10,974 nucleotides of DNA from DASVDK01 sp036562265 [NCBI: Thermodesulfobacteriota bacterium] (lineage in GTDB: Bacteria; DASVDK01): contig DATCKS010000498.1 of assembly GCA_036562265.1 (NCBI GenBank), positions 1 to 10,974 of the forward strand. The letters run 5' to 3'. The notes beneath the pieces were generated by a model, which was given only the letters and a program-made list of their open reading frames with translations, had not been told where the DNA came from and searched no databases. A program made the position numbers and the translations under genes. This document shows positions 216-10,742 of the stretch, piece after piece; the first letter of the stretch is position 1, and every line of letters begins with the position of its first letter.

Positions 216-1421
216 TCAGCTCTCCTGGCACGCCGGCAAAGGCTCGGGCGCCGCCTGGCCGGCCGGCGGGCCGGCCTGCGACGGACGCGCCTCCTCCCGG
301 CCGGGACGGCGCGGGACGAGATGCGCCGCCGTCGCCTTGAACGCCGCCACGACGGCGCGCCCCTCCTCGAGGCCGAGTTCGACGAAGGCGCGCTTCGTAA
401 CGGTCGCCACCAGCGGGAAGCCGCAATCGATCGTCACGCGGAACTGTCCCTCGAGCGGCAGGACGGCGCGCACCACGCCGGGCAGCCGGTTGCGAACGCT
501 CGTCAGCCCCTCGTGGACGTGGGAACCGGCGTCGCGGGGGCTGACCGCGACGTCCTCGGGCCGCACGCAGACGTGGACCGCCGAGCCGGCGGGCAGGTCG
601 GTGCGAACCTCGACGCGAGACACGGTACCGCCCGGACCGAAGACGCGCACGACGCCGAGGCCGTCGTCCACCGACTCGAGGACCCCGGGCTGGATCGTCT
701 CGACGCCGACGAAGGCCGCCACCCGCTCGTCCGCCGGCGCCTCGAAGACCTCCGCCGGTGTGCCGATCTGGACGATCCGGCCGCCGAGGAGGACCGCCAC
801 CCGGTCGGCCAGCATGAGCGCCTCGGACCGGTCGTGCGTCACCAGGAGCGCCGTCGTCCCCGTCTCGGCGAGCACGCGGCGCAGGTCCGCGATGAAGGCG
901 GCCCGGCTCGGCGCATCGAGCGGGGCGAACGGCTCGTCGAGGAGGACGAGCCGCGGCTCGATCGCCATGGCCCGGGCGAGGCTCACCCGCTGCGCCTCGC
1001 CGCCCGACAGGTGCCGCGCCCGCCGGCTCGCGAGGTGGCCGATGCCGAGCCGGTCGAGCCACGCCTGCGCCTTCGCGCGCGCCTCGCGGCGGCCGATCCC
1101 CCGGTATCGGAGCCCCTGCGCGGCGTTGTCGAGCGCCGTCGTGTCGAGGAGGAGCGGCTGCTGCATGACGGTGGCGATCCGCCGGCGATAGTCGAGCGCC
1201 GCCGGGCCGGTCGGCTCGACCGGCCGCCCCTCGAACGTGAGGCGACCCGCGTCCCACGGCCGCACGCAGGCCAGCGCGGCGAAGAGCGTCGACTTGCCCG
1301 ACCCGTTCGGCCCGATCACGGCGAGCGTCTCGCCGTCGACGACGTCGAGCGCCTCGACGACCAGCGCGGCCGGGCCGTCCCCGAACCGCACCTCGAGGCC
1401 GCGCACCTCGAGGAGGTTCAT
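216..1421 (-). CDS. tupC: Tungstate ABC transporter, ATP-binding protein TupC
   Basis: This cytoplasmic ATPase powers oxyanion import through TupB. Of 401 residues, 1-235 form the nucleotide-binding domain: Walker A GPNGSGKST (37-45), Q-loop MQQP (86-89), signature LSGGEAQR (138-145), Walker B LVLLDEP (158-164) and H-loop THD (195-197). Residues 240-368 hold TOBE-type segments as in ModC/WtpC; in that family they bind oxyanion and can limit transport. The last 30 or so residues are a Pro/Ala/Gly-rich tail of no clear function. It begins 7 bases after the tupB stop and follows tupA-tupB, which makes tungstate (or molybdate) the likely substrate. From sequence alone ModC or WtpC are alternative names; the TupA and TupB signatures next door decide for TupC. 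Confidence 0.88.
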   Translation of the reverse strand: MNLLEVRGLEVRFGDGPAALVVEALDVVDGETLAVIGPNGSGKSTLFAALACVRPWDAGRLTFEGRPVEPTGPAALDYRRRIATVMQQPLLLDTTALDNAAQGLRYRGIGRREARAKAQAWLDRLGIGHLASRRARHLSGGEAQRVSLARAMAIEPRLVLLDEPFAPLDAPSRAAFIADLRRVLAETGTTALLVTHDRSEALMLADRVAVLLGGRIVQIGTPAEVFEAPADERVAAFVGVETIQPGVLESVDDGLGVVRVFGPGGTVSRVEVRTDLPAGSAVHVCVRPEDVAVSPRDAGSHVHEGLTSVRNRLPGVVRAVLPLEGQFRVTIDCGFPLVATVTKRAFVELGLEEGRAVVAAFKATAAHLVPRRPGREEARPSQAGPPAGQAAPEPLPACQES

Positions 1422-1428
1422 GGCCGCG

Positions 1429-2127
1429 TCACCGGACCTTCCCTCGCTGCTGGATCATGGTGAGGCCGAGGTTCACGAGGTAGGCGAGGAGGAGCAGGAT
1501 GAGACCGAGCGCGATCGCCAGGTCGAAGTTCCCGCGGGCGGTCTCCATGACGGTGGCGGTGGTGAGGACCCGCGTGTGCCCCTTGATGTTCCCACCGACC
1601 ATCATCACCGCGCCCACCTCGGAGATGACGGCGCCGAAGCCGGCCATGACGGCCGCGAGGAGCGGCAGCCGCGCCTCCTTCCAGAGGGACAGGAGGAGCT
1701 GGGGCCGCGAGGCGCCGAGCCCGAGGAGCTGCAGGCGCAGGCGCGGGTCGAGGTTCTGCATGGCCGCCACGGTGAGACCGGTCACCATCGGCGCGGCGAT
1801 GATCACCTGGGCCACGACCATCGCGGTGGGGCTGTAGAGGATGCCCAGGATCCCGAGCGGCCCGTTCCGCCACAGGAGGATCGTCACGAAGAGGCCGACC
1901 ACGACCGGCGGCATGCCCATGCCGGTGTTGACGGCCGCGAGGAGGACGCTCCGGCCCGGAAAGCGGGTCAGGGCCAGGAGCGTCCCCATCGGAACGCCGA
2001 CGAGGAGGCTTACGAGCGTGGCCGTCCCCGAGACGCGCAGCGAGAGCCACGTGACCGCGACGACCTCGGGGTCACCCGTGACGAGGAGCCAGAAGGCCTT
2101 TCGGATCCCGTCCCAGACGAGGTCCAC
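1429..2127 (-). CDS. tupB: Tungstate ABC transporter, permease TupB
   Basis: A 232-residue inner-membrane permease. It has about five to six hydrophobic segments (around residues 30-52, 64-85, 94-118, 150-178 and 200-222). The EAA-type loop that contacts the ATPase lies around residues 127-150 (LGASRPQLLLSLWKEARLP). The stretch VGAVMMVGGNIKGHTRVLTT (171-190) and the following METARGNFDLAIALGLIL are hallmarks of TupB rather than ModB or CysT permeases. It starts with GTG, 9 bases after the tupA stop, with only a weak Shine-Dalgarno (TAGGT), which suggests translational coupling to tupA. The length is normal for the family. Confidence 0.9.
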   Translation of the reverse strand: MDLVWDGIRKAFWLLVTGDPEVVAVTWLSLRVSGTATLVSLLVGVPMGTLLALTRFPGRSVLLAAVNTGMGMPPVVVGLFVTILLWRNGPLGILGILYSPTAMVVAQVIIAAPMVTGLTVAAMQNLDPRLRLQLLGLGASRPQLLLSLWKEARLPLLAAVMAGFGAVISEVGAVMMVGGNIKGHTRVLTTATVMETARGNFDLAIALGLILLLLAYLVNLGLTMIQQRGKVR

Positions 2128-2136
2128 GCGCGAGAC

Positions 2137-2994
2137 CTAGCCGCCGACCTCGGCCTCCGACTTGCCGGCGTCGGGGAAGAAGAGCGGGGAGCCGTACTTC
2201 TCGACGCCGAACGTGCGGATGACCGACTGCGCCTCGGGCGACACCATGAAGTCGACGAACGCCTTGCCGCCGGCGGCGTTCACCTTCGGGTGCTTCGCCG
2301 GGTTCACGTTCATCACGTGATAGACGTTGAGCAGCGGCGCGTCGCCCTCGTGGAGGATCTCGAGCCCGAGGTTCCGCCTGAGCGACAGGTAGGTGCCGCG
2401 GTCGGTCAGCGTGTAGGCCTCCTTCTCCGACGCGATGTTGAGCGTCTGCCCCATGCCCTGCCCGGCCTCCTGGTACCAGCCGCCCGAGGGCCTGACGCCG
2501 GCGCTCTTCCAGAGCGCCTGCTCCTTCTTGTGCGTCCCCGAGTCGTCGCCCCGGGAGATGAAGGTCGCCTTCGCCTCGGCGATGCGGCGCATCGCATCGG
2601 CCGTCTTCGTGATCCCCTTGACCTTCGCGGGGTCGGACGGCGGGCCGACGATGACGAAGTCGTTGTGCATGACGAGCGACCAGTTGATCACGTGGCCCGC
2701 ATCGACGAGCTTCTTCTCCGCCTCCGGCGCGTGGGCGAGGACCACGTCCGCCTCGCCCCGCTCGGCGAGCGCCAGCGCCTGGCCGGTGCCGACCGAGATC
2801 GGCTTCACCCGATAGCCGGTCTTCTTCTCGAACATCGGGATCAGGACGTCGAGGAGCCCCGAGTCCATCGTGCTCGTCGTCGTCGAGAGGATGACGTCGC
2901 GATTTTCCTGCGCCCCCTCGGCGCCGCCGACCGACAGGAGCGCGGCCGCGACCACCGCGGCCAGCCAGAGCGCCGTACGCCTAGACGGATGCAT
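2137..2994 (-). CDS. tupA: Tungstate-binding periplasmic protein TupA
   Basis: The extracytoplasmic solute-binding protein of the Tup transporter, 285 residues, normal family length. Residues 1-28 form a Sec signal peptide (basic start, hydrophobic core LWLAAVVAAALL, probable cut after GAEGA). The mature protein shows the TupA signatures STTTSTMDSGLLDVL (37-51), SVGTGQALAL (67-76), SRGDDSGTHKKE (147-158) and YTLTDRGTYL (194-203). In characterised TupA proteins the TTTS and RGD/SGTH regions contact the oxyanion; that is family knowledge, not something shown here. The start is supported by GGGAGGA 7 bases before the ATG. Its first 14 bases overlap the end of the upstream regulator gene, so the two are probably translated together. 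TupA proteins prefer tungstate to molybdate. Confidence 0.93.
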   Translation of the reverse strand: MHPSRRTALWLAAVVAAALLSVGGAEGAQENRDVILSTTTSTMDSGLLDVLIPMFEKKTGYRVKPISVGTGQALALAERGEADVVLAHAPEAEKKLVDAGHVINWSLVMHNDFVIVGPPSDPAKVKGITKTADAMRRIAEAKATFISRGDDSGTHKKEQALWKSAGVRPSGGWYQEAGQGMGQTLNIASEKEAYTLTDRGTYLSLRRNLGLEILHEGDAPLLNVYHVMNVNPAKHPKVNAAGGKAFVDFMVSPEAQSVIRTFGVEKYGSPLFFPDAGKSEAEVGG

Positions 2995-3895
2995 GGACGA
3001 TCCTCCCGGACTCCTCCGTGCCGTAGCCGCCGAGACGCCGGAGGTAGTCCTTGAAGCGCCTGCCGGCCACCGTCTCGAGGAGACGCTGGACCGGCCGGGC
3101 GAAGTAGGTGTCCTTCCGCACGACCACGTCGAACCGCTCGCGCGCGATCGGCAGCATCTCGAGGCCGAGCAGGCGGGCGACGCCCGCCTCCGCCACGCCG
3201 ACGTCCGCCTCGCCGCGCAGGACCGCGAGCCCCACCTCGAGGTGCGTGCGCAGCTCGCGGCGGTAGCCGGTCACCTTCGTGACGGGGATGCCCGCCTCCG
3301 CGAGCCTGGTGTCGAGCAAGAGCCGCGTACCCGACCCGCGCTGCCGGTTGGCGAGACGCACGTCGGGTCGGGCGAGGTCGGCCACGCCGGTGATGCGCCT
3401 GGGATTGCCGGGCGCGACGACGAGGCCGACCTGCCGGTGGAACACGGTGACGATCACGGCCGGGACGCCTGCCAGGTCGCGCCGGACGAAGGGGACGTTG
3501 TACTCGCCGGTTGCCGGGTCGAAGAGGTGGCAGAACGCGAGGTCGGCGCGGTCGGCGGCGAGGGCCGCGAGCCCGGCGCGGCTGCCGGTCGCCGCCGCGA
3601 AGAGGTAGGTCTCCGGGGCCTCGTCGAGCAGCAGGTCCTGCAGGCGGCGGAGGGCCAGGTCGTCGCTGCCGGCCGCCATGAGGCTCGTCTCGAGACGCCT
3701 CGCCCTCGCGTCGTCGCGAGGGGTGCGTCTCGCCTGCCGCTCGATCCACTCGTCCACGAGGTGCCGGGGAAAGACGTACTTCCCGGTCACGCGCGTGGCC
3801 GGGATGGCGCCGCGCTTGACCAGCACGTAGACCTGCTTCTCGTGGACCCCGAGGTAGGCCGCCACCTCGCGCGTGGACATGAGGTTGCCCGGCAT
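2981..3895 (-). CDS. Helix-turn-helix / PBP-like fusion regulator, probable oxyanion-responsive regulator of the tup operon
   Basis: A 304-residue soluble protein with no signal peptide. Residues 7-52 are an excisionase-type helix-turn-helix (STREVAAYLGVHEKQVYVLV, then a GKYVFPRHLVDEW wing), the HTH_17 family. Residues about 73-290 match the PBP_like domain, a cytoplasmic relative of periplasmic binding proteins, with its NRQRGSGTRLLLD signature (183-195). This architecture is known next to molybdate and tungstate transporters; the effector here (tungstate or molybdate) is inferred from the neighbours. It is the first gene of the operon, and its stop lies inside the tupA start region. No Shine-Dalgarno precedes the ATG at 3893-3895 or the in-frame ATG at 3878-3880. 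A promoter -10 box ends 6 bases before the first ATG, so leaderless translation from 3895 is the best guess. Confidence 0.85.
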   Translation of the reverse strand: MPGNLMSTREVAAYLGVHEKQVYVLVKRGAIPATRVTGKYVFPRHLVDEWIERQARRTPRDDARARRLETSLMAAGSDDLALRRLQDLLLDEAPETYLFAAATGSRAGLAALAADRADLAFCHLFDPATGEYNVPFVRRDLAGVPAVIVTVFHRQVGLVVAPGNPRRITGVADLARPDVRLANRQRGSGTRLLLDTRLAEAGIPVTKVTGYRRELRTHLEVGLAVLRGEADVGVAEAGVARLLGLEMLPIARERFDVVVRKDTYFARPVQRLLETVAGRRFKDYLRRLGGYGTEESGRIVHASV

Positions 3896-3901
3896 GTGAG
3901 G

Positions 3902-3930
3902 AGCGTACGGCTAGCCCCGATGGGCGTCAA
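3902..3930 (-). promoter_or_regulatory. Sigma70-type promoter of the regulator-tup operon (leaderless)
   Basis: Read on the minus strand, TTGACG (3925-3930) is followed after exactly 17 bases by TACGCT (3902-3907). That is 5 of 6 matches to the -35 consensus and the three key positions of the -10. Six bases then separate the -10 from the ATG, so the predicted transcription start falls on or next to the start codon. It is the only convincing promoter seen ahead of the five-gene cluster. Confidence 0.6.
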
Positions 3931-3936
3931 GGTTCC

Positions 3937-3952
3937 TCCAGATTCCTCTGGA
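3937..3952. promoter_or_regulatory. Candidate operator: 16-bp palindrome upstream of the tup promoter
   Basis: TCCAGA and TCTGGA form a perfect 6-bp inverted repeat around a 4-base centre, 6 bases upstream of the -35 box. The position suits an activator or repressor site for the adjacent HTH-PBP regulator. Only one copy is visible, so assignment to that regulator is inference. It overlaps the 14-bp partial repeat copy at 3948-3961. Confidence 0.3.
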
Positions 3953-3961
3953 AAACGGAAA
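3948..3961. repeat. Partial copy of the 25-bp repeat
   Basis: CTGGAAAACGGAAA here is identical, in the same orientation, to the first 14 bases of the second unit of the tandem array at 4376-4450, and then diverges. Together the two sites bracket the aldehyde dehydrogenase remnant, which may mean the remnant came in, or was trimmed, with a repeat-associated element. Confidence 0.55.
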
Positions 3962-3969
3962 ATTCCTAC

Positions 3970-4375: not shown

Positions 4376-4450
4376 CTGGAAAATGGAAAGGCCTGACCCC
4401 CTGGAAAACGGAAAGACCTGACCCCATGGAAAACGGAAAGGCCTGACCCC
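4376..4450. repeat. Three perfect-length tandem copies of a 25-bp repeat
   Basis: Units at 4376-4400, 4401-4425 and 4426-4450 each begin TGGAAAA(C/T)GG after one base and end CCTGACCCC. Unit 1 has T for C at its ninth base, unit 2 has A for G at its sixteenth, and unit 3 has A for C at its first. On the minus strand each begins GGGGTCAGG, a core that I recall from short repeats near IS200/RAYT-type transposases in several high-GC phyla. No transposase gene is present here. Confidence 0.9.
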
Positions 4451-4672: not shown

Positions 4673-6928
4673 GTGTTGCACCGCTTCCGCATCGGCACGC
4701 GTCTCGCCGTCGGTTTCGGCCTCGTGCTCTGCCTCATGGCGGCCGCGGCGGTCGCCGGAGACGTGAGCCTCCGGTACGCCGTCGGAGCCGTCCGCACCAG
4801 GATCGAGCGCGAGGGGGCCACCGCACGGGGCGCGGCCCGCGTGTTCGCCCACACGCGGGCGATGCGCCACCACGAGACGGAGACGTTCCTCTTCGCGGGC
4901 GAGCCCGACCGGGTAGCCGAGGCGGTCGGGCGGTGGCAGGAGGCGCGCCGTCGCCTGACGGCCGAACTCGACCAGCTCGAGGCGCTGGTCGACGCGGCGG
5001 CGGAGACCGAGTCGCTCGCCCGCATGCGCGCGGCGGTCTCGGACTACGAGTCGGGCTTCGCCACGGTGTCCGGGATGATCAGCTCCGGCCTCATCAGCGA
5101 CCCGATCTCGGCCAGGGTCGCGCTCGGCCAGTACGCCGACTCCGGCCGCGCGGTCGAGACGGCGGCCCAGCACCTGGCCGAGGAGGCCAACCAGGCCAAG
5201 GCGGCATACGAGGAGGAGCTCAAGGGGCTGGTCGCGAGAGCGTCGGCGACGACGTACGCCGCCGTGACCCTGGCGATCGCGCTGGCCGGGCTCGTCGGGT
5301 GGGTCCTCACCCGCAGCCTCACGCGCCCGATCGCGCTCGCGGTGCGGATCGCGGAGCGCGTGGCGGTGGGCGATCTGCCGGAGCGGGTGCCGGCGCGGGG
5401 CCGCGACGAGACGGCCAGGCTCATCGAGGCGGTCAACGGGATGACGGCCTACCTCCGCGACATGGCCGCGACGGCGCAGCGCATCGCCGAGGGCGACCTC
5501 GGCGCCCGCGTCGAGCCGCGCTCCGATCGGGACGTGCTCGGCCTGGCCTTCAACGGCATGGGCGTCTACCTGAAGGCGATGGCGACCGCGGCGGAGGCGA
5601 TCAGCCAGGGCGACCTGCGCACGTCGGTGACGCCGAGGTCCGACCGCGACGTCCTCGGGTGGGCCTTCTCGGAGATGACGACCTACCTGCGCGCGATCGC
5701 CCGCACGGCGGAGGCCGTGGCCACCGGTGACCTGCGCGAGTCGGTCCAGCCCAAGTCGGACCGCGACCTGCTCGGCCGCGCGTTCGCCAACATGGTCACC
5801 GGCCTGCGCGGGCTCGTCGGCGAGGTGCGCGGCGGGGCCGGCGAGGTGGCGGCGGCCGCGAGCGGCATTGCCGCGGCGAGCGACAACGGCGCGAAGGGCG
5901 CCGAGCGGGCGCAGGTGGCCATCGAGGAAATGACGTCGACGATGCTCGAGCTGTCGGCGAACGTGCAGGAGGTGGCCGAGAACGCCCAGGGGCAGGCGGC
6001 CAGCGCGGCCGAGACCGCCTCGGCGGTGGCGCAGATGGTGGCGTCGGCCCGGCGCATCAGCGAGCGCGGCCAGGAGCTGGCCGACATCGCGCGGCGGTCG
6101 GGCGAGGCCGTGGCGAGCGGCCAGGCGGCCGTGCGCCGGTCGGCCGACGCGGTGGCCGGCGGGCTCAAGGCCGTGGAGCGCTCCACCAGCGGCATGGCGC
6201 GCATCTCGGCCGCCATCGGCGGCTCGGCGGAAGTGATCGAGGGGCTCGGAAAGCGCGCGCAGGAGATCGGCCGCATCGTCGCCATCATCGACGACATCAC
6301 GAACCGGACGAACCTCCTCGCCCTCAACGCCGCGATCATCGCGGCCCAGGCGGGCGAGCAGGGGAAGAGCTTCGCGGTGGTGGCCCAGGAGGTGCGCACG
6401 CTGGCCGAGCGGAGCGCCCAGTCGACGAAGGAGATCGGCAGCCTCGTGGCCGCCATCCAGGAAGAGACGCTCGCCGCGGTGGCGCACATGCAGGCCTCCC
6501 GCGACAGCGTGGCCGAAGGGCTCGTCCTCGGCGCCGAGGTGCGCGACGCGCTCGCGCGGATCGACGCCGCCTCGGCGGAGGTCACGGCCGAGCTCGCGCG
6601 CATCGAGGAGACGGTGGCCGAGGTCGAGCGCTGCACGGCCGACATCGGCCAGGCCACGCGCGACCAGGCCGCTGGCGGCGCCCAGGTCGAGCGCGAGGTG
6701 GCGAGGCTCGCCGAGATGGCGAAGGAGATCCAGCGCGCCACGCGCGAGCAGGCGTCCGGCGCGGGGGAGGTCGTGAAGCTCGCCGAGCGGATGCGCGCCG
6801 CGACGCACGACCACGCCGAGGCGGCCGTCGCCCTGCGCCAGTCGGCCGGCATCCTCGACGCCAACGCCGAACGGCTCACCGCCGCCGTGGCCCGGTTCCG
6901 CACGATCGAGGCCGAGGCGCGCGCGTAA
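4673..6928 (+). CDS. Methyl-accepting chemotaxis protein with four tandem HAMP units
   Basis: A 751-residue membrane chemoreceptor. Membrane segment 1 is about residues 11-29, an all-helical periplasmic sensor spans about 30-194, and membrane segment 2 is about 195-213. Four HAMP units follow (about 214-263, 264-302, 303-342, 343-382). The last three are 40-residue repeats each carrying GDL and SDRD(V/L)LG. The coiled-coil signalling domain runs about 395-700, with its hairpin tip around 540-570. The tip reads [16 protein letters not shown] (552-567) instead of the usual NAAIEAARAGEQGRGF, losing the Glu and Arg that in Tsr help form trimers of dimers. There is no C-terminal CheR/CheB-docking pentapeptide. 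The GTG start is chosen because AAGGAG lies 11 bases upstream; a TTG follows it at once. No che genes are nearby, and the ligand is unknown. Confidence 0.93.
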
Positions 6929-6994: not shown

Positions 6995-7900
6995 GTGCCT
7001 GACACCGGGCTCCTGGTCCTCCGCGTCTCCCGAGAACACCTGGTCGTGGCCGGCGAGGGCGGGCGACCGCTCGCCGCGTTCACGAAGCGCCGCAGCCGGA
7101 TCGTGGTGGGCGATCGCGTCGAGGTGCGCGAGCACAGCGACCGGCTCGAGGCGGTCCGGGTCCTGCCGCGCCAATCGGTCCTGCGCCGCCGCGAGGAGGA
7201 CGGGGAGCGGGTCCTCGCCGCCAACGTCGACCGCCTGGTGATCGTCACCGCGGTGGGCGTACAGTTTCGCCCCGGCCTGGTCGACCGCCTGCTCGTGGCG
7301 GCCGAGGTCGACGGCATCGTCCCCATCATCGTCCTCAACAAGATGGACCTTCCCGAGGCCGACGCCACGGTCGCCGAGGCCGCCCGCTACGAGCGGATCG
7401 GCTACCGGCTCCGGCCGACGAGCGTCGTCACGGGACAGGGGATCGACGCGCTCGCCGCCGACCTGCACGGCCACGTGAGCGCGCTGGTCGGTCACTCCGG
7501 CGTCGGCAAGTCCTCCCTCCTCAACACCCTCGCCCCGGGCGCCGCGCGCGCGGTCGCGGCGGTCAACCCGGTCACCGGCAAGGGGCGCCACACGACGAGC
7601 GTGGCCGAGGGGTACCCCTTCGACGGGGGGATCCTCATCGACCTGCCGGGGGTGCGGGAGTTCGGCCTCGCGGGGGTGACCCCGCGCCGCCTGACCGAGG
7701 CGATGCCGGACCTGCGTGCGGTCGCCGAGGGGTGCCGCTTCGCCGACTGCCTCCACCGGGTGGAGCCCGGCTGCGCCGTGCGCGAGGCGGTCCACTCGGG
7801 CGCCGTCGATCCGGCCCGGTACCGCTCCTATCTCCGCATGCTCGAGACCCTCCTCAACCCCGACGTCTACACGCGGGATCTCGAGGCCGATCTCGTCTGA
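6995..7900 (+). CDS. rsgA: Ribosome small subunit-dependent GTPase A (RsgA/YjeQ)
   Basis: A 301-residue cytoplasmic GTPase that helps late 30S ribosome subunit maturation. It has an N-terminal OB-fold (about 5-60), then the circularly permuted GTPase order typical of RsgA: G4 NKMD (115-118) comes before G1 GHSGVGKS (166-173), then KGRHTT (196-201) and G3 DLPG (216-219). A C-terminal zinc site follows with Cys247, Cys252, His254 and Cys260. All key residues are present and the length is normal. The start is GTG at 6995 with no Shine-Dalgarno; a -10 box ends 6 bases before it, so the message is probably leaderless. It follows the chemoreceptor by 66 bases and appears to have its own promoter. 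Confidence 0.95.
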   Translation: MPDTGLLVLRVSREHLVVAGEGGRPLAAFTKRRSRIVVGDRVEVREHSDRLEAVRVLPRQSVLRRREEDGERVLAANVDRLVIVTAVGVQFRPGLVDRLLVAAEVDGIVPIIVLNKMDLPEADATVAEAARYERIGYRLRPTSVVTGQGIDALAADLHGHVSALVGHSGVGKSSLLNTLAPGAARAVAAVNPVTGKGRHTTSVAEGYPFDGGILIDLPGVREFGLAGVTPRRLTEAMPDLRAVAEGCRFADCLHRVEPGCAVREAVHSGAVDPARYRSYLRMLETLLNPDVYTRDLEADLV

Positions 7901-7951: not shown

Positions 7952-8290
7952 TCAGCGTGCCGCGCGCTCGGCGAGGATCTCGGCTTCGGCCTGGCGCCAG
8001 TGCTCGAGGGCGCGGCCCTCGGGGCGGCCGTCGCGTTCGTAGATCTCGTAGGCGCGGCGCGCGATCGCGTCGTGCAGGTCGGCGTCGACCGGCCGGGGTG
8101 CCTGATCGATCGCGCCGCGAGTGCTCGCCGAGCCGGCCGATGGGGCCTCGACGCCCTCGGTGGTGGGGGAGACGTCGGTGCGGACCGCCTCTCCGACGGC
8201 CTCTCCGGGGTGTGCGGTCGTGGGCTCGGCCGCCGGCGTGGCGGCCTTCTTCCTCCTCGTGGGTGGTCTGCGTCTGGTCGTGTCGGCCAT
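7952..8290 (-). CDS. DUF2934 small protein, function unknown
   Basis: A 112-residue protein. Residues 1-20 are Arg/Lys-rich (RRRPPTRRKK), about 20-68 are low-complexity and probably disordered, and 71-108 match the DUF2934 domain (AIARRAYEIYERDGRPEGRA, then LEHWRQAEAEI). The domain is short and helical, has no known function, and is common in soil bacteria. The basic start could bind nucleic acid, but that is speculation. GGAGG lies 4 bases before the ATG, a rather short spacing. It converges with rsgA (51-base gap) and diverges from the cupin gene. Confidence 0.85.
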   Translation of the reverse strand: MADTTRRRPPTRRKKAATPAAEPTTAHPGEAVGEAVRTDVSPTTEGVEAPSAGSASTRGAIDQAPRPVDADLHDAIARRAYEIYERDGRPEGRALEHWRQAEAEILAERAAR

Positions 8291-8456: not shown

Positions 8457-8846
8457 ATGGCGAACGAGCCCTACGCCGCGGACGTGACGCGGCTCGCCCG
8501 AGAGAACGACGACTTCCGCCGGGTGCTCCACACGACCGACCGTTCGCAACTGGTGCTCATGTCGGTGCCCGCGGGCGAGGAGATCGGCGAGGAGACGCAC
8601 GAGGGGATCGATCAGGTCCTGGTCTTCGTGGAGGGCGAGGGGGAAGCGGTGCTCGCCGGCACGCGCCGGCCGGTCAGGGCCGGCGACGTCGTCGTGGTGC
8701 CGGCCGGCACGCGGCACAACTTCATCACCAGGGGGGCCGCGCCGCTCAAGCTCTTCACGATCTACACGCCGCCCGAGCACCCGTCGGGCACCGTTCACCG
8801 CACGCGGGCGGAGGCCGAGGCCGCGGAGGCCGCCTCCCACCACTGA
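8457..8846 (+). CDS. Small single-domain cupin protein
   Basis: A 129-residue cytoplasmic beta-barrel protein of the cupin_2 type. The first cupin motif reads GEETHEGIDQVLVFVEGEG (44-62) and the second runs GDVVVVPAGTRHNFI (76-90). The segment LKLFTIYTPPEHPSGTVH (97-114) identifies the well-populated group often labelled cupin or mannose-6-phosphate isomerase-like. In motif 1 only His48 of the usual His-x-His pair is present, and Gln53 stands where Glu is typical; His87 is kept. Metal binding is therefore uncertain. No enzyme activity is known to me for this group. It has a perfect TATAAT promoter and a good ribosome site, and stands as a single gene. Confidence 0.9.
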   Translation: MANEPYAADVTRLARENDDFRRVLHTTDRSQLVLMSVPAGEEIGEETHEGIDQVLVFVEGEGEAVLAGTRRPVRAGDVVVVPAGTRHNFITRGAAPLKLFTIYTPPEHPSGTVHRTRAEAEAAEAASHH

Positions 8847-8860
8847 GCCGCGCCGCGCCC

Positions 8861-8883
8861 CGACCGGACGAGCCTACCGGTCG
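8861..8883. terminator. Possible shared hairpin between convergent cupin and antiporter genes
   Basis: CGACCGG (8861-8867) and CCGGTCG (8877-8883) pair across a 9-base loop that contains the antiporter stop codon (8874-8876); the cupin stop ends at 8846. It could serve both strands. No T-run follows on either side, so it is a weak intrinsic-terminator candidate. Confidence 0.35.
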
Positions 8884-10742
8884 TCCGAGAGGGCCGGCTT
8901 CACCGCGGCGGCCGCGGCCGAGCCGGCGTCGGCCGGCTCGGCGGGCGCGGCTCGCTTCACGTCCCCTTCGGCCGTGGAGGCGGCCGCCGGCTCGGCGGCC
9001 TTTGGGGAGACGGTCGCCTGGCTCCCGTCCGGAGGCTCGGCGAGGATGGCGAGCCCGACGCGCGTGACGCGGCCGTCCTCCACCCCGCGCACGCAGAGCG
9101 CCACCTGGCCGATCGTCACCTGACTGCCCGGCTCGAGTTCGTCGCCCAGCCAGTCCCGCAGGACCTCGTCGAGCGTCTTCGAGGGCGCGGCATCGATCGC
9201 GATGCCGTACATCGCCTGCAGTTCCTCCACGGTGGTTCCGCCCCGCAGCGGGAACTCGATCTCCGCCGGCACGCCGGGGCTTTCGGCCGCCGGGGCGAAC
9301 ACCTGGTCGACGATCGGTTGCACCTCCGACCGGAGGACGAGCGAGACGTGGTCCCCGGCGTGCAACTCGGTGTCGCCCTGCGGCGGGATCACCTGGCGCC
9401 CCCGGGAGATCAGCGCCACCACCGCTCCGTCGGGGAGGGCGAGGTCCCGGATGCGCCGGCCGACCGCCCGGGACCTGGGGTCGACCGTGTAGTCGACGAT
9501 GTGGCTGTCGACGTGGCGGAGGGCGGCGATCTCGAGCGTCGCGGGAGGCTCGGGCAGCGGCGGAAGGCTCAGGCCGAGCGCCCGGGCGAGCGGCGGCATG
9601 GTCCAGCCCTGGGCGATCACCGAGACCAGCACCGTGAAGAACACGATGTCGAACACGAGCAGGGCGTTCGGGATCTCGAAGAGGAAGGGGAAGGTCGCCA
9701 GGACGATCGGCACCGCCCCCTTCAGGCCGACCCACGAGATGAAGAGCTGCTCGCGCCGACTGAACTTGAACGGCAGGAGGCACGCCGCGACGGCGACCGG
9801 ACGGGCGACGAAGACGAGCACCGCGGCCACCGCGAGCCCCTGCCAGGTGACCTCGGCGAGCCGGCTCGGGAAGCTGAGGAGCCCGAGCACGACGAACATC
9901 CCGATCTGCGAGAGCCACGCGAGGGCGTCCTGGAAGACGAAGATCCCCCGCTGGAAGACGATGCGGTTGTTCCCGACGACCAGGCCGGCCAGGTACACGG
10001 CGAGGAAGCCGCTGCCGCCCAGGGAGGCGGCCATCCCGAAGACGAGGAGCGCCCCGGCCGCGACGAAGACCGGATAGAGCCCTGCGGCCGGCAGGTTGAC
10101 GCGATTGATGACCCAGACGACGCTCCAGCCGCCGAGGAGCCCGACCACGGCGCCGAGCGTCATCTGCTTCACGAAGAGCCACACGAGCCCGAAGAACGAG
10201 CCGGCCGTGCCGGTCAGGATCTCGAGGCAGCCGATCGTGAGGAAGATCGCCATCGGGTCGTTCGCGCCGCTCTCGATCTCGAGCGTGGCGGCGATCCGCT
10301 CCCGGATGCGCACCCCCTGGGACCGGAGCACGGCGAAGACGGCGGCGGCGTCCGTCGAGCCGACGATGCTCCCGATCAGCAGGCCTTCGATCCAGGGCAG
10401 GTTCAGGATGAGCGAGGCGCAGATCCCGGTGACGAGCGCGGTCACCACGACGCCCGCCGTGGCCAGGCTGGCGGCCGGCCACGACGCGGCGCGGAACGCC
10501 GAGAGCGGCGTCCGAAGGCCGCCGTCGAAGAGGATGAACGCGAGGGCCAGCGTGCCGACCGCGTGGGCCAGGCGATAGTCCTCGAAGGCCAGGCCGCCGA
10601 TTCCCTCCGAGCCGGCGAGCATCCCGACCCCGAGGAAGACCAGGAGGACCGGCAGGCCGAGCCGATAGGAGAACTTGCTCGAGACGACGCCGCCCAGCAC
10701 CAGGACGGCGGCGAGGAGGATCAGGCGATCGACGGCGAACAT
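8874..10742 (-). CDS. nhaP2: K+/H+ antiporter, NhaP2/CvrA type
   Basis: A 622-residue inner-membrane cation/proton antiporter. Residues 1-390 form about 12-13 membrane segments of a Na_H_exchanger domain, with GSTDAAAVF (128-136), the ion-site motif ESGANDPMA (157-165), Arg314 and GLKGAVP (339-345). Residues about 405-480 are a TrkA_C/RCK_C domain (SHIVDYTVDPRSRAVGRRI onward), which in relatives senses ligands. Residues about 490-570 resemble the CorC/HlyC-associated domain, giving the NhaP2 domain order. Residues 575-622 are an extra Ala/Pro/Glu-rich tail, probably disordered; E. coli CvrA is about 578 residues. The ATG has only a weak GGAG 4 bases upstream. Likely role: potassium or sodium export for osmotic and pH balance. 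The exact ion cannot be told from sequence. Confidence 0.92.
   Translation of the reverse strand: MFAVDRLILLAAVLVLGGVVSSKFSYRLGLPVLLVFLGVGMLAGSEGIGGLAFEDYRLAHAVGTLALAFILFDGGLRTPLSAFRAASWPAASLATAGVVVTALVTGICASLILNLPWIEGLLIGSIVGSTDAAAVFAVLRSQGVRIRERIAATLEIESGANDPMAIFLTIGCLEILTGTAGSFFGLVWLFVKQMTLGAVVGLLGGWSVVWVINRVNLPAAGLYPVFVAAGALLVFGMAASLGGSGFLAVYLAGLVVGNNRIVFQRGIFVFQDALAWLSQIGMFVVLGLLSFPSRLAEVTWQGLAVAAVLVFVARPVAVAACLLPFKFSRREQLFISWVGLKGAVPIVLATFPFLFEIPNALLVFDIVFFTVLVSVIAQGWTMPPLARALGLSLPPLPEPPATLEIAALRHVDSHIVDYTVDPRSRAVGRRIRDLALPDGAVVALISRGRQVIPPQGDTELHAGDHVSLVLRSEVQPIVDQVFAPAAESPGVPAEIEFPLRGGTTVEELQAMYGIAIDAAPSKTLDEVLRDWLGDELEPGSQVTIGQVALCVRGVEDGRVTRVGLAILAEPPDGSQATVSPKAAEPAAASTAEGDVKRAAPAEPADAGSAAAAAVKPALSDDR

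Follow-up and report, generated by a model that had tools for sequence, protein, structure and literature searches.

TaoR is the characterised regulator of a tungsten aldehyde oxidoreductase, and its canonical domains are a helix-turn-helix (HTH) domain and a domain resembling periplasmic binding proteins (PBP); TaoR-like proteins with an extra TOBE domain are described as having a group 17 HTH (PMC11980592). In Desulfovibrio vulgaris, DVU3193 is named 'tupR', for which Rajeev et al. 2019 is cited, and its disruption, as that of tupABC or aor, increases fitness on chlorate (PMC10102598). This phenotype suggests that the D. vulgaris regulator is needed for tungsten-enzyme activity. Rajeev et al. 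2019 reportedly found, using electrophoretic mobility shift assays and footprints, that TaoR activates aor and represses tupABC; the passages of papers citing that study give no DNA motif for TaoR. Here, we describe a gene of this kind in a stretch of 10,974 nt (hereafter the window; contig DATCKS010000498.1 of the Thermodesulfobacteriota bacterium DASVDK01 sp036562265), where it heads a tup-type operon whose genes all lie on the minus strand. The initial annotation of this gene had called the ligand, the DNA site and the sign of control largely uncharacterised, which is too strong for the family, since TaoR (DVU3193/tupR) is a published tungsten regulator of the same architecture. The kind of regulator is thus already known, and the locus is a typical one for the family.

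The likeness to TaoR/tupR of D. vulgaris Hildenborough, drawn by description, lies in the HTH and PBP-like domains and in the tie to tungstate uptake and a tungsten enzyme (PMC11980592, PMC10102598). In contrast to DVU3193, which by its locus number stands apart from tupABC (DVU0747-0745), the window regulator heads its operon and overlaps it. ModE is likewise a cytoplasmic molybdenum-responsive regulator of an oxyanion transporter (PMC11980592), but senses via TOBE domains, of which a Pfam scan found none in the window regulator. VnfR1 and VnfR2 of Anabaena variabilis, molybdenum-dependent repressors with an N-terminal HTH and genes upstream of vupABC and vnfH (PMC4284476), are likened here by their HTH and gene position, and in Nostoc the gene for a protein with HTH_3 and PBP_like domains lies upstream of nifH. 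The same PBP_like domain also occurs in MoeA-PBP (MoeA1) fusions, reported to co-occur with TupA (PMC11733289), where it is joined to a cofactor-synthesis enzyme rather than to a DNA-binding domain. TupA itself shares with the regulator the PBP fold and aligned oxyanion-site residues; whereas TupA is exported and serves the transporter, the N-terminus of the regulator is an HTH, so that its sensor should be cytoplasmic.

We consider it probable that the window gene encodes a TaoR-type cytoplasmic transcription factor that responds to tungstate or molybdate and controls its own tup operon through head-to-tail copies bound to one-turn repeats. In the proposed model, a single promoter would be occupied by several copies, each contacting the DNA with its excisionase-like winged HTH and arranged head to tail along direct repeats that lie immediately before the -35 box at intervals of one helical turn. 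Closure of the PBP domain on intracellular tungstate (or molybdate) would then alter the assembly, and this change would adjust uptake to supply, the tup genes presumably being repressed when tungstate is plentiful.

The domain assignments of the regulator are far above chance. HTH_17 (PF12728) is matched with 52.5 bits (cut-off 27) and PBP_like (PF12727) with 209.8 bits (cut-off 27, E 2.7e-62), and the NCBIfam model 'excise' (TIGR01764) is matched with 47.3 bits (cut-off 28.8), which bears out the fusion of an excisionase-type HTH to a PBP_like domain proposed in the initial annotation. The open reading frame coordinates likewise agree with its placing of the gene at the head of a tup-type operon, with 14 bases (2981-2994) shared with the tupA-type gene. 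Together, the excisionase-type HTH_17, the C-terminal PBP-like domain and the tungsten/molybdenum transport neighbourhood are the features of the TaoR family found in the window. The partner protein encoded next matches solved TupA chains (3lr1, E 3.9e-68; 5my5, E 7.3e-63) and retains the TTTS motif (T9-S12, T9 being counted as the first T) and H59, R118, T124 and D170 of the 5my5 protein, the latter four as H88, R148, T154 and D198. In Desulfovibrio alaskensis TupA these four residues are named for the oxyanion site, and R118 was mutated as a test (PMC5517513). Tungstate is therefore the likely substrate of the window protein.

The link between regulator and transporter is conserved. The phylum of the first relative was searched with the regulator protein, and 213 of the 297 genomes covered contained a match. 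Many of the matches listed lie in frames of about 640-690 amino acids, and the four scanned were of the MoeA type and carried a PBP domain at the C-terminus (NF011068 above its cut-off). We worked with 87 relatives, namely 85 HTH-containing genes chosen by eye among the matches listed and one each from genomes G003 and G005, leaving out frames above 600 amino acids (MoeA fusions by length), a fragment in G008 and L003, which comes from the same genome as L119. Counting as near a TupA match (E <1e-15) or a TupB/ModB match (E <1e-10) within 5 kb, with TupC/ModC matches uncounted, 56/87 relatives have such a gene: TupA lies directly downstream on the same strand in 27 and elsewhere within 5 kb in 23, and a TupB/ModB-like gene alone is present in six. 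For 13 of the 31 relatives without a transporter gene, the contig ends less than 3 kb away. Among relatives at least 43% identical to the window regulator, TupA is next in 18/23, and the label 'TupA next' clusters on the tree of relatives, with 13 changes where shuffles averaged 24.0 and 0/500 went as low; the window sits on a long branch of unsure placement. In a small other phylum (12 genomes), TupA and TupB are next to 5/5 full-length relatives. The association of relatives with molybdenum/tungsten transporters, also part of the initial annotation, is thus borne out. That annotation had further named homologues lying mostly away from oxyanion transporters as a finding that would count against it; this is not the case in the main phylum (56/87), whereas in the phylum of G003 TupA or ModA was found for 3/9 chosen relatives with 1.5 kb flanks (two TupA, one ModA, six neither).

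Four relatives (L096, L100, L107 and L108) have a tandem pair of TupA-like genes behind the regulator, 42-45% and 58-61% identical to the window TupA. Beside two loci lacking transporter genes, an FdhE-like gene and a xanthine-dehydrogenase-type flavin adenine dinucleotide subunit gene, respectively, were noted by eye, and no tup- or mod-type match was found in 8 kb on each side of the 48% identical relative of Myxococcales bacterium UBA5297 (L003/L119). On plasmids, nine of the 20 relatives listed (43 matches) were opened, of which six lie by a Tup/Mod transporter, one by nif genes, one in an arsenic cluster and one by neither. In the arsenic case (L204, Rhodobacter capsulatus plasmid pRCB133), the homologous PBP domain heads an arsenic-resistance cluster and is preceded by the HTH, which the annotation gives as a small gene of its own. 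A Cro-type HTH_3 replaces HTH_17 before PBP_like in L205 and L208, beside modA (Thermomicrobium and Deinococcus), and in L207, beside nifH (Nostoc); the domain behind an unrelated HTH at such loci suggests a movable molybdenum/tungsten-sensing module.

The DNA-binding domain, modelled alone with a predicted local distance difference test score (pLDDT) of 87, is best matched by the winged-HTH fold of the BldC/Xis group. The model resembles DNA-bound BldC (6ama, Z 8.8, 2.6 Å over 55 residues; 6amk, Z 8.5, 1.6 Å over 51) and the excisionases RdfS (Z 8.0, 1.6 Å over 54), Pukovnik Xis (Z 7.9, 1.9 Å over 52) and lambda Xis in its DNA filament (2ief, Z 6.3, 1.9 Å over 50). BldC molecules line up head to tail on direct repeats (PMC5859096); on a longer site neighbours are one DNA turn apart, and a short site has 9-base repeats (PMC11963761), a spacing that fits the 10-base period in the promoters of relatives described below. 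The likeness lies in the DNA-binding fold and, for relatives of the window regulator, in direct repeats spaced about one helical turn; in contrast to the 304-residue window protein with its PBP_like domain, BldC is small and these proteins have no C-terminal sensor. An ordinary LysR-type mode, with dimers on an inverted repeat and an unusual HTH, could be proposed on the basis of the sensor model, which is similar to LysR effector domains and also to full-length proteins of the LysR type. It is very improbable, given that HTH_17 was the sole domain found in the N-terminal region by the Pfam scan, with no LysR HTH (HTH_1), that the HTH model fits BldC and excisionases best, and that relatives carry direct 10-base repeats.

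These repeats lie in the 200 bases 5' of the start codons of relatives, where short direct repeats, often GTAATnnnnn, recur every 10 bases and end near a TTGACA-like box. With the window's promoter excluded, TTGA follows the best-scoring array within 16 bases in 21/27 TupA-next promoters (counted by eye), and a promoter-like pair was found in 23/28 TupA-next promoters. The period was assessed sequence by sequence and without a profile, comparing periods 6-16 (11 periods, ties split) in the 26/28 TupA-next promoters kept after removal of near copies, the window included. Period 10 was best in 17.3/26 promoters; 300 shuffles averaged 2.4 and never exceeded 6.0, and the corresponding values were 3.5/26 for stretches inside the gene and 1.8/25 for stretches 500-700 bases upstream. 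It was also best in 18.4/59 promoters of other relatives and in 6.0/11 from two other phyla. The letters of the arrays vary among relatives (GTAAT, GTCAT, GGTT, GTTG), while the period is constant. A pooled lag statistic was dropped in favour of this test, because homologous stretches are not independent: lag 10 reached z 8.3, but the control inside the gene reached z 7.1 and 10.3 at lags 8 and 9.

The pattern GTAATN5GTAATN5-12TTGACA occurs nine times in the 297 genomes, six times before the regulator gene, and its reversed control once. When GTAAT arrays with at most one mismatch were collected from 21 close genomes, 23 matches were found in 15 genomes (two for the reversed control), of which 14 (12 genomes) lie before the regulator gene and nine (seven places) elsewhere. 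The latter were rejected as a regulon, the places being too mixed (purF, a sulfur-relay-type gene, a porin-like gene, a TupA-like gene, a lipoprotein/TonB-receptor region and two others; names by eye). GTAAT arrays preceding a porin-like gene (L147 in G261), lying close to a divergent TupA-like gene (L149 in G202) and preceding a lipoprotein/TonB-receptor region (L150 in G035), all named by eye, may mark outer-membrane uptake targets.

The sensor domain, as modelled, is similar to a molybdenum-type binding protein (4kd5, Z 13.7, 4.5 Å over 210 residues), ModA (6nio, Z 13.1, 4.5 Å over 208) and TupA (5my5, Z 12.8, 3.8 Å over 213). In 86 of 88 sequences (window included) that passed a length filter, G76, S77, D79, G104, S105, G108, H123, R154, R184, G189, R191, G210, H218, E253 and D256 are conserved at 100% after rounding. 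A profile alignment with 49 TupA sequences pairs H88, R148, T154 and D198 of the window TupA with H123, R184, T190 and D231 of the regulator, which are kept in 100, 100, 92 and 95% of the 86 sequences, so that the regulator pocket appears, with support from the alignment, to line up with the TupA oxyanion site. All 17 pocket-region residues compared are kept in 4/4 MoeA-PBP fusions checked.

Two alternatives concern what this pocket binds. The effector could be molybdate or a broader oxyanion signal, with tungstate specificity residing in TupA alone: PBP_like regulators stand beside modA or modABC (Thermomicrobium, Deinococcus and Cereibacter plasmids; a different HTH in two of four) and nif (Nostoc, likewise with a different HTH), the pocket residues are common to these different settings, and ModA fits the sensor model no less well than TupA does. 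We regard this as unlikely, since the partner here and in 27/87 relatives is TupA itself, and the D. vulgaris regulator has been connected with the uptake of tungstate and with a tungsten enzyme (PMC10102598). Alternatively, the fusion of the same domain to MoeA, an enzyme that handles a cofactor intermediate, could mean that such an intermediate is the ligand in place of the free oxyanion. Genomes G001 and G002 encode both MoeA-PBP fusions and the regulator, the pocket residues are kept in the four fusions, and a groove from the PBP site to the MoeA active site has been modelled (PMC11733289). The conserved residues nevertheless match the small-oxyanion site of TupA, and this alternative seems quite improbable. 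The coordinates of the regulator gene, its operon and its putative control elements are listed in Table 1.

Table 1. Genes of the tup-type operon and candidate control elements in the window.
Feature	Position	Strand	Details
TaoR-type regulator gene	3895..2981	-	ATG start, 304 amino acids; HTH_17 at residues 5-54, low-confidence linker 55-78, PBP_like 92-276
tupA-type oxyanion-binding protein gene	2994..2137	-	ATG at 2994; TTTS motif at residues 38-41
tupB-type permease gene	2127..1429	-	Domain matches; follows tupA
tupC-type ATPase gene	1421..216	-	C-terminal TOBE domain
Candidate promoter	3930..3902	-	TTGACG 3930-3925, 17-base spacer, TACGCT 3907-3902
Candidate operator	3931..3966	-	Degenerate 10-base direct repeats GAATTTTCCG / TTTTCCAGAG / GAATCTGGAG / GAACC, read along 3965-3931 and ending at -35-like box

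At the window's own candidate operator, place and period agree with the arrays of relatives. Period 10 ranks best in the profile-free test; in a 90-base stretch, lag 10 is equalled by 7/1000 shuffles and lag 7 by 6/1000. The candidate promoter that follows was not matched in a stricter consensus promoter scan of the window. Its -10-like box ends six bases before the ATG, so that the transcript would be nearly leaderless. By eye, no Shine-Dalgarno sequence is seen at 3896-3907, or likewise in relative L103, and the operon message may be leaderless.

Several observations weigh against the reading of the gene as a TaoR-type regulator acting through one-turn repeats on its own operon. The window TupA-type protein falls below the NCBIfam TupA equivalog cut-off (225.2 versus 400 bits), so that tungstate is its likely rather than its proven substrate, and 18/87 relatives, each flanked by at least 3 kb of DNA on both sides, lack a transporter gene of the types counted within 5 kb. 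Nor is the HTH matched by the BldC/Xis group alone: MerR-type proteins reach Z 7.3 and 7.0, and a Foldseek search with the HTH model returned nothing at E 0.001 or better. The full-length model, built from five sequences, is of medium confidence (pLDDT 77, predicted template modelling score 0.66), and a sulfonate-type protein (3uif, Z 13.0) and the LysR effector domain of BenM (Z 12.5) lie less than one Z unit from TupA; the fold matches of the sensor do not fix its ligand. The profile alignment of TupA and regulator has a low probability (23.2% in two settings, below 5% in two). Its pairing is stable in 4/4 settings for H88, R148 and T154 and in 3/4 for D198, which the global mode pairs with another position, and the alignment does not place the TTTS loop of TupA on the regulator. 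As to the arrays, a triple GTAAT array (at most one mismatch) precedes the gene in just 12/21 close genomes, and no period, of 10 bases or otherwise, stands out in the five plasmid relatives tested (z 1.6 at lag 10 and 2.0 at lag 12).

Further points of this kind concern the window site itself. Column-permuted profiles score as high on it as the repeat profile of relatives in 635/2000 cases, shuffles of its AT-rich core do so in 397/5000 and shuffles of the wider local stretch in 43/2000, and with the profile of relatives periods 7 and 13 outscore 10 in the window. That profile therefore does not single out the site beyond its AT-richness, and it was rejected as proof of the operator: 0/500 shuffles of the whole stretch scored as high, yet the stricter controls failed. 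Moreover, the 13-mer TGGAAAACGGAAA lies within the candidate operator (plus strand, 3949-3961) and recurs exactly at 4402-4414 and 4427-4439, in two of three tandem 25-base repeats of the TGGAAAACGGAAAGGCCTGACCCC type found at 4377-4450, upstream of a chemotaxis-receptor gene. The shared 13-mer makes a serious rival of the proposal that the protein does regulate the operon, but from a site elsewhere, and that a copy of the 25-base repeat has decayed into the AT-rich repeats at 3931-3966. Five matches to the 13-mer at no more than two mismatches, against 0.01 expected, speak for decay, as does the failure of the profile of relatives to find a specific match in the window. On the other hand, the AT-rich island occupies the position of the arrays of relatives, directly before the -35-like box, and the profile-free test ranks period 10 first for it. 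We hold a decayed repeat to be possible, though on the unlikely side. Exact 23-base forms of the 25-base repeat had no matches in viral contigs or in the 297 genomes.

The remainder of the window carries genes for a chemotaxis receptor (4673-6928), an RsgA GTPase (6995-7900), a DUF2934 protein (7952-8290, minus strand), a cupin (8457-8846) and a Na/H exchanger with TrkA_C (8874-10742, minus strand), and no Rfam family reaches its gathering score within it. The TOBE domain on the operon ATPase (216-1421) is a possible second cytoplasmic oxyanion site, which could gate transport.

With these points weighed, a TaoR-type regulator that responds to tungstate or molybdate and controls its own operon remains our preferred explanation. 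The overall interpretation of the initial annotation stands for the fusion, the operon, the link to molybdenum/tungsten transporters and the pocket, which aligns, and fails in treating the family as largely uncharacterised; what is added here is a conserved promoter period, a shared pocket and a caveat on the window's own operator. A more general proposal, tentative and somewhat short of probable, is that TaoR-type proteins are metal-gated filaments, whose excisionase/BldC-like winged HTH would assemble head to tail on 10-base arrays abutting the -35 box and whose PBP sensor, with the pocket of TupA and the MoeA fusions, would switch the assembly on or off by intracellular tungstate. If this were true, one pocket design would serve uptake, cofactor synthesis and gene control. 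The analysis offers a testable link among the tungstate pocket of TupA, a like pocket in the regulator and in MoeA fusions, and a promoter array of constant period but changing letters, and with it a route toward understanding how tungsten is told apart from molybdenum in the cell.

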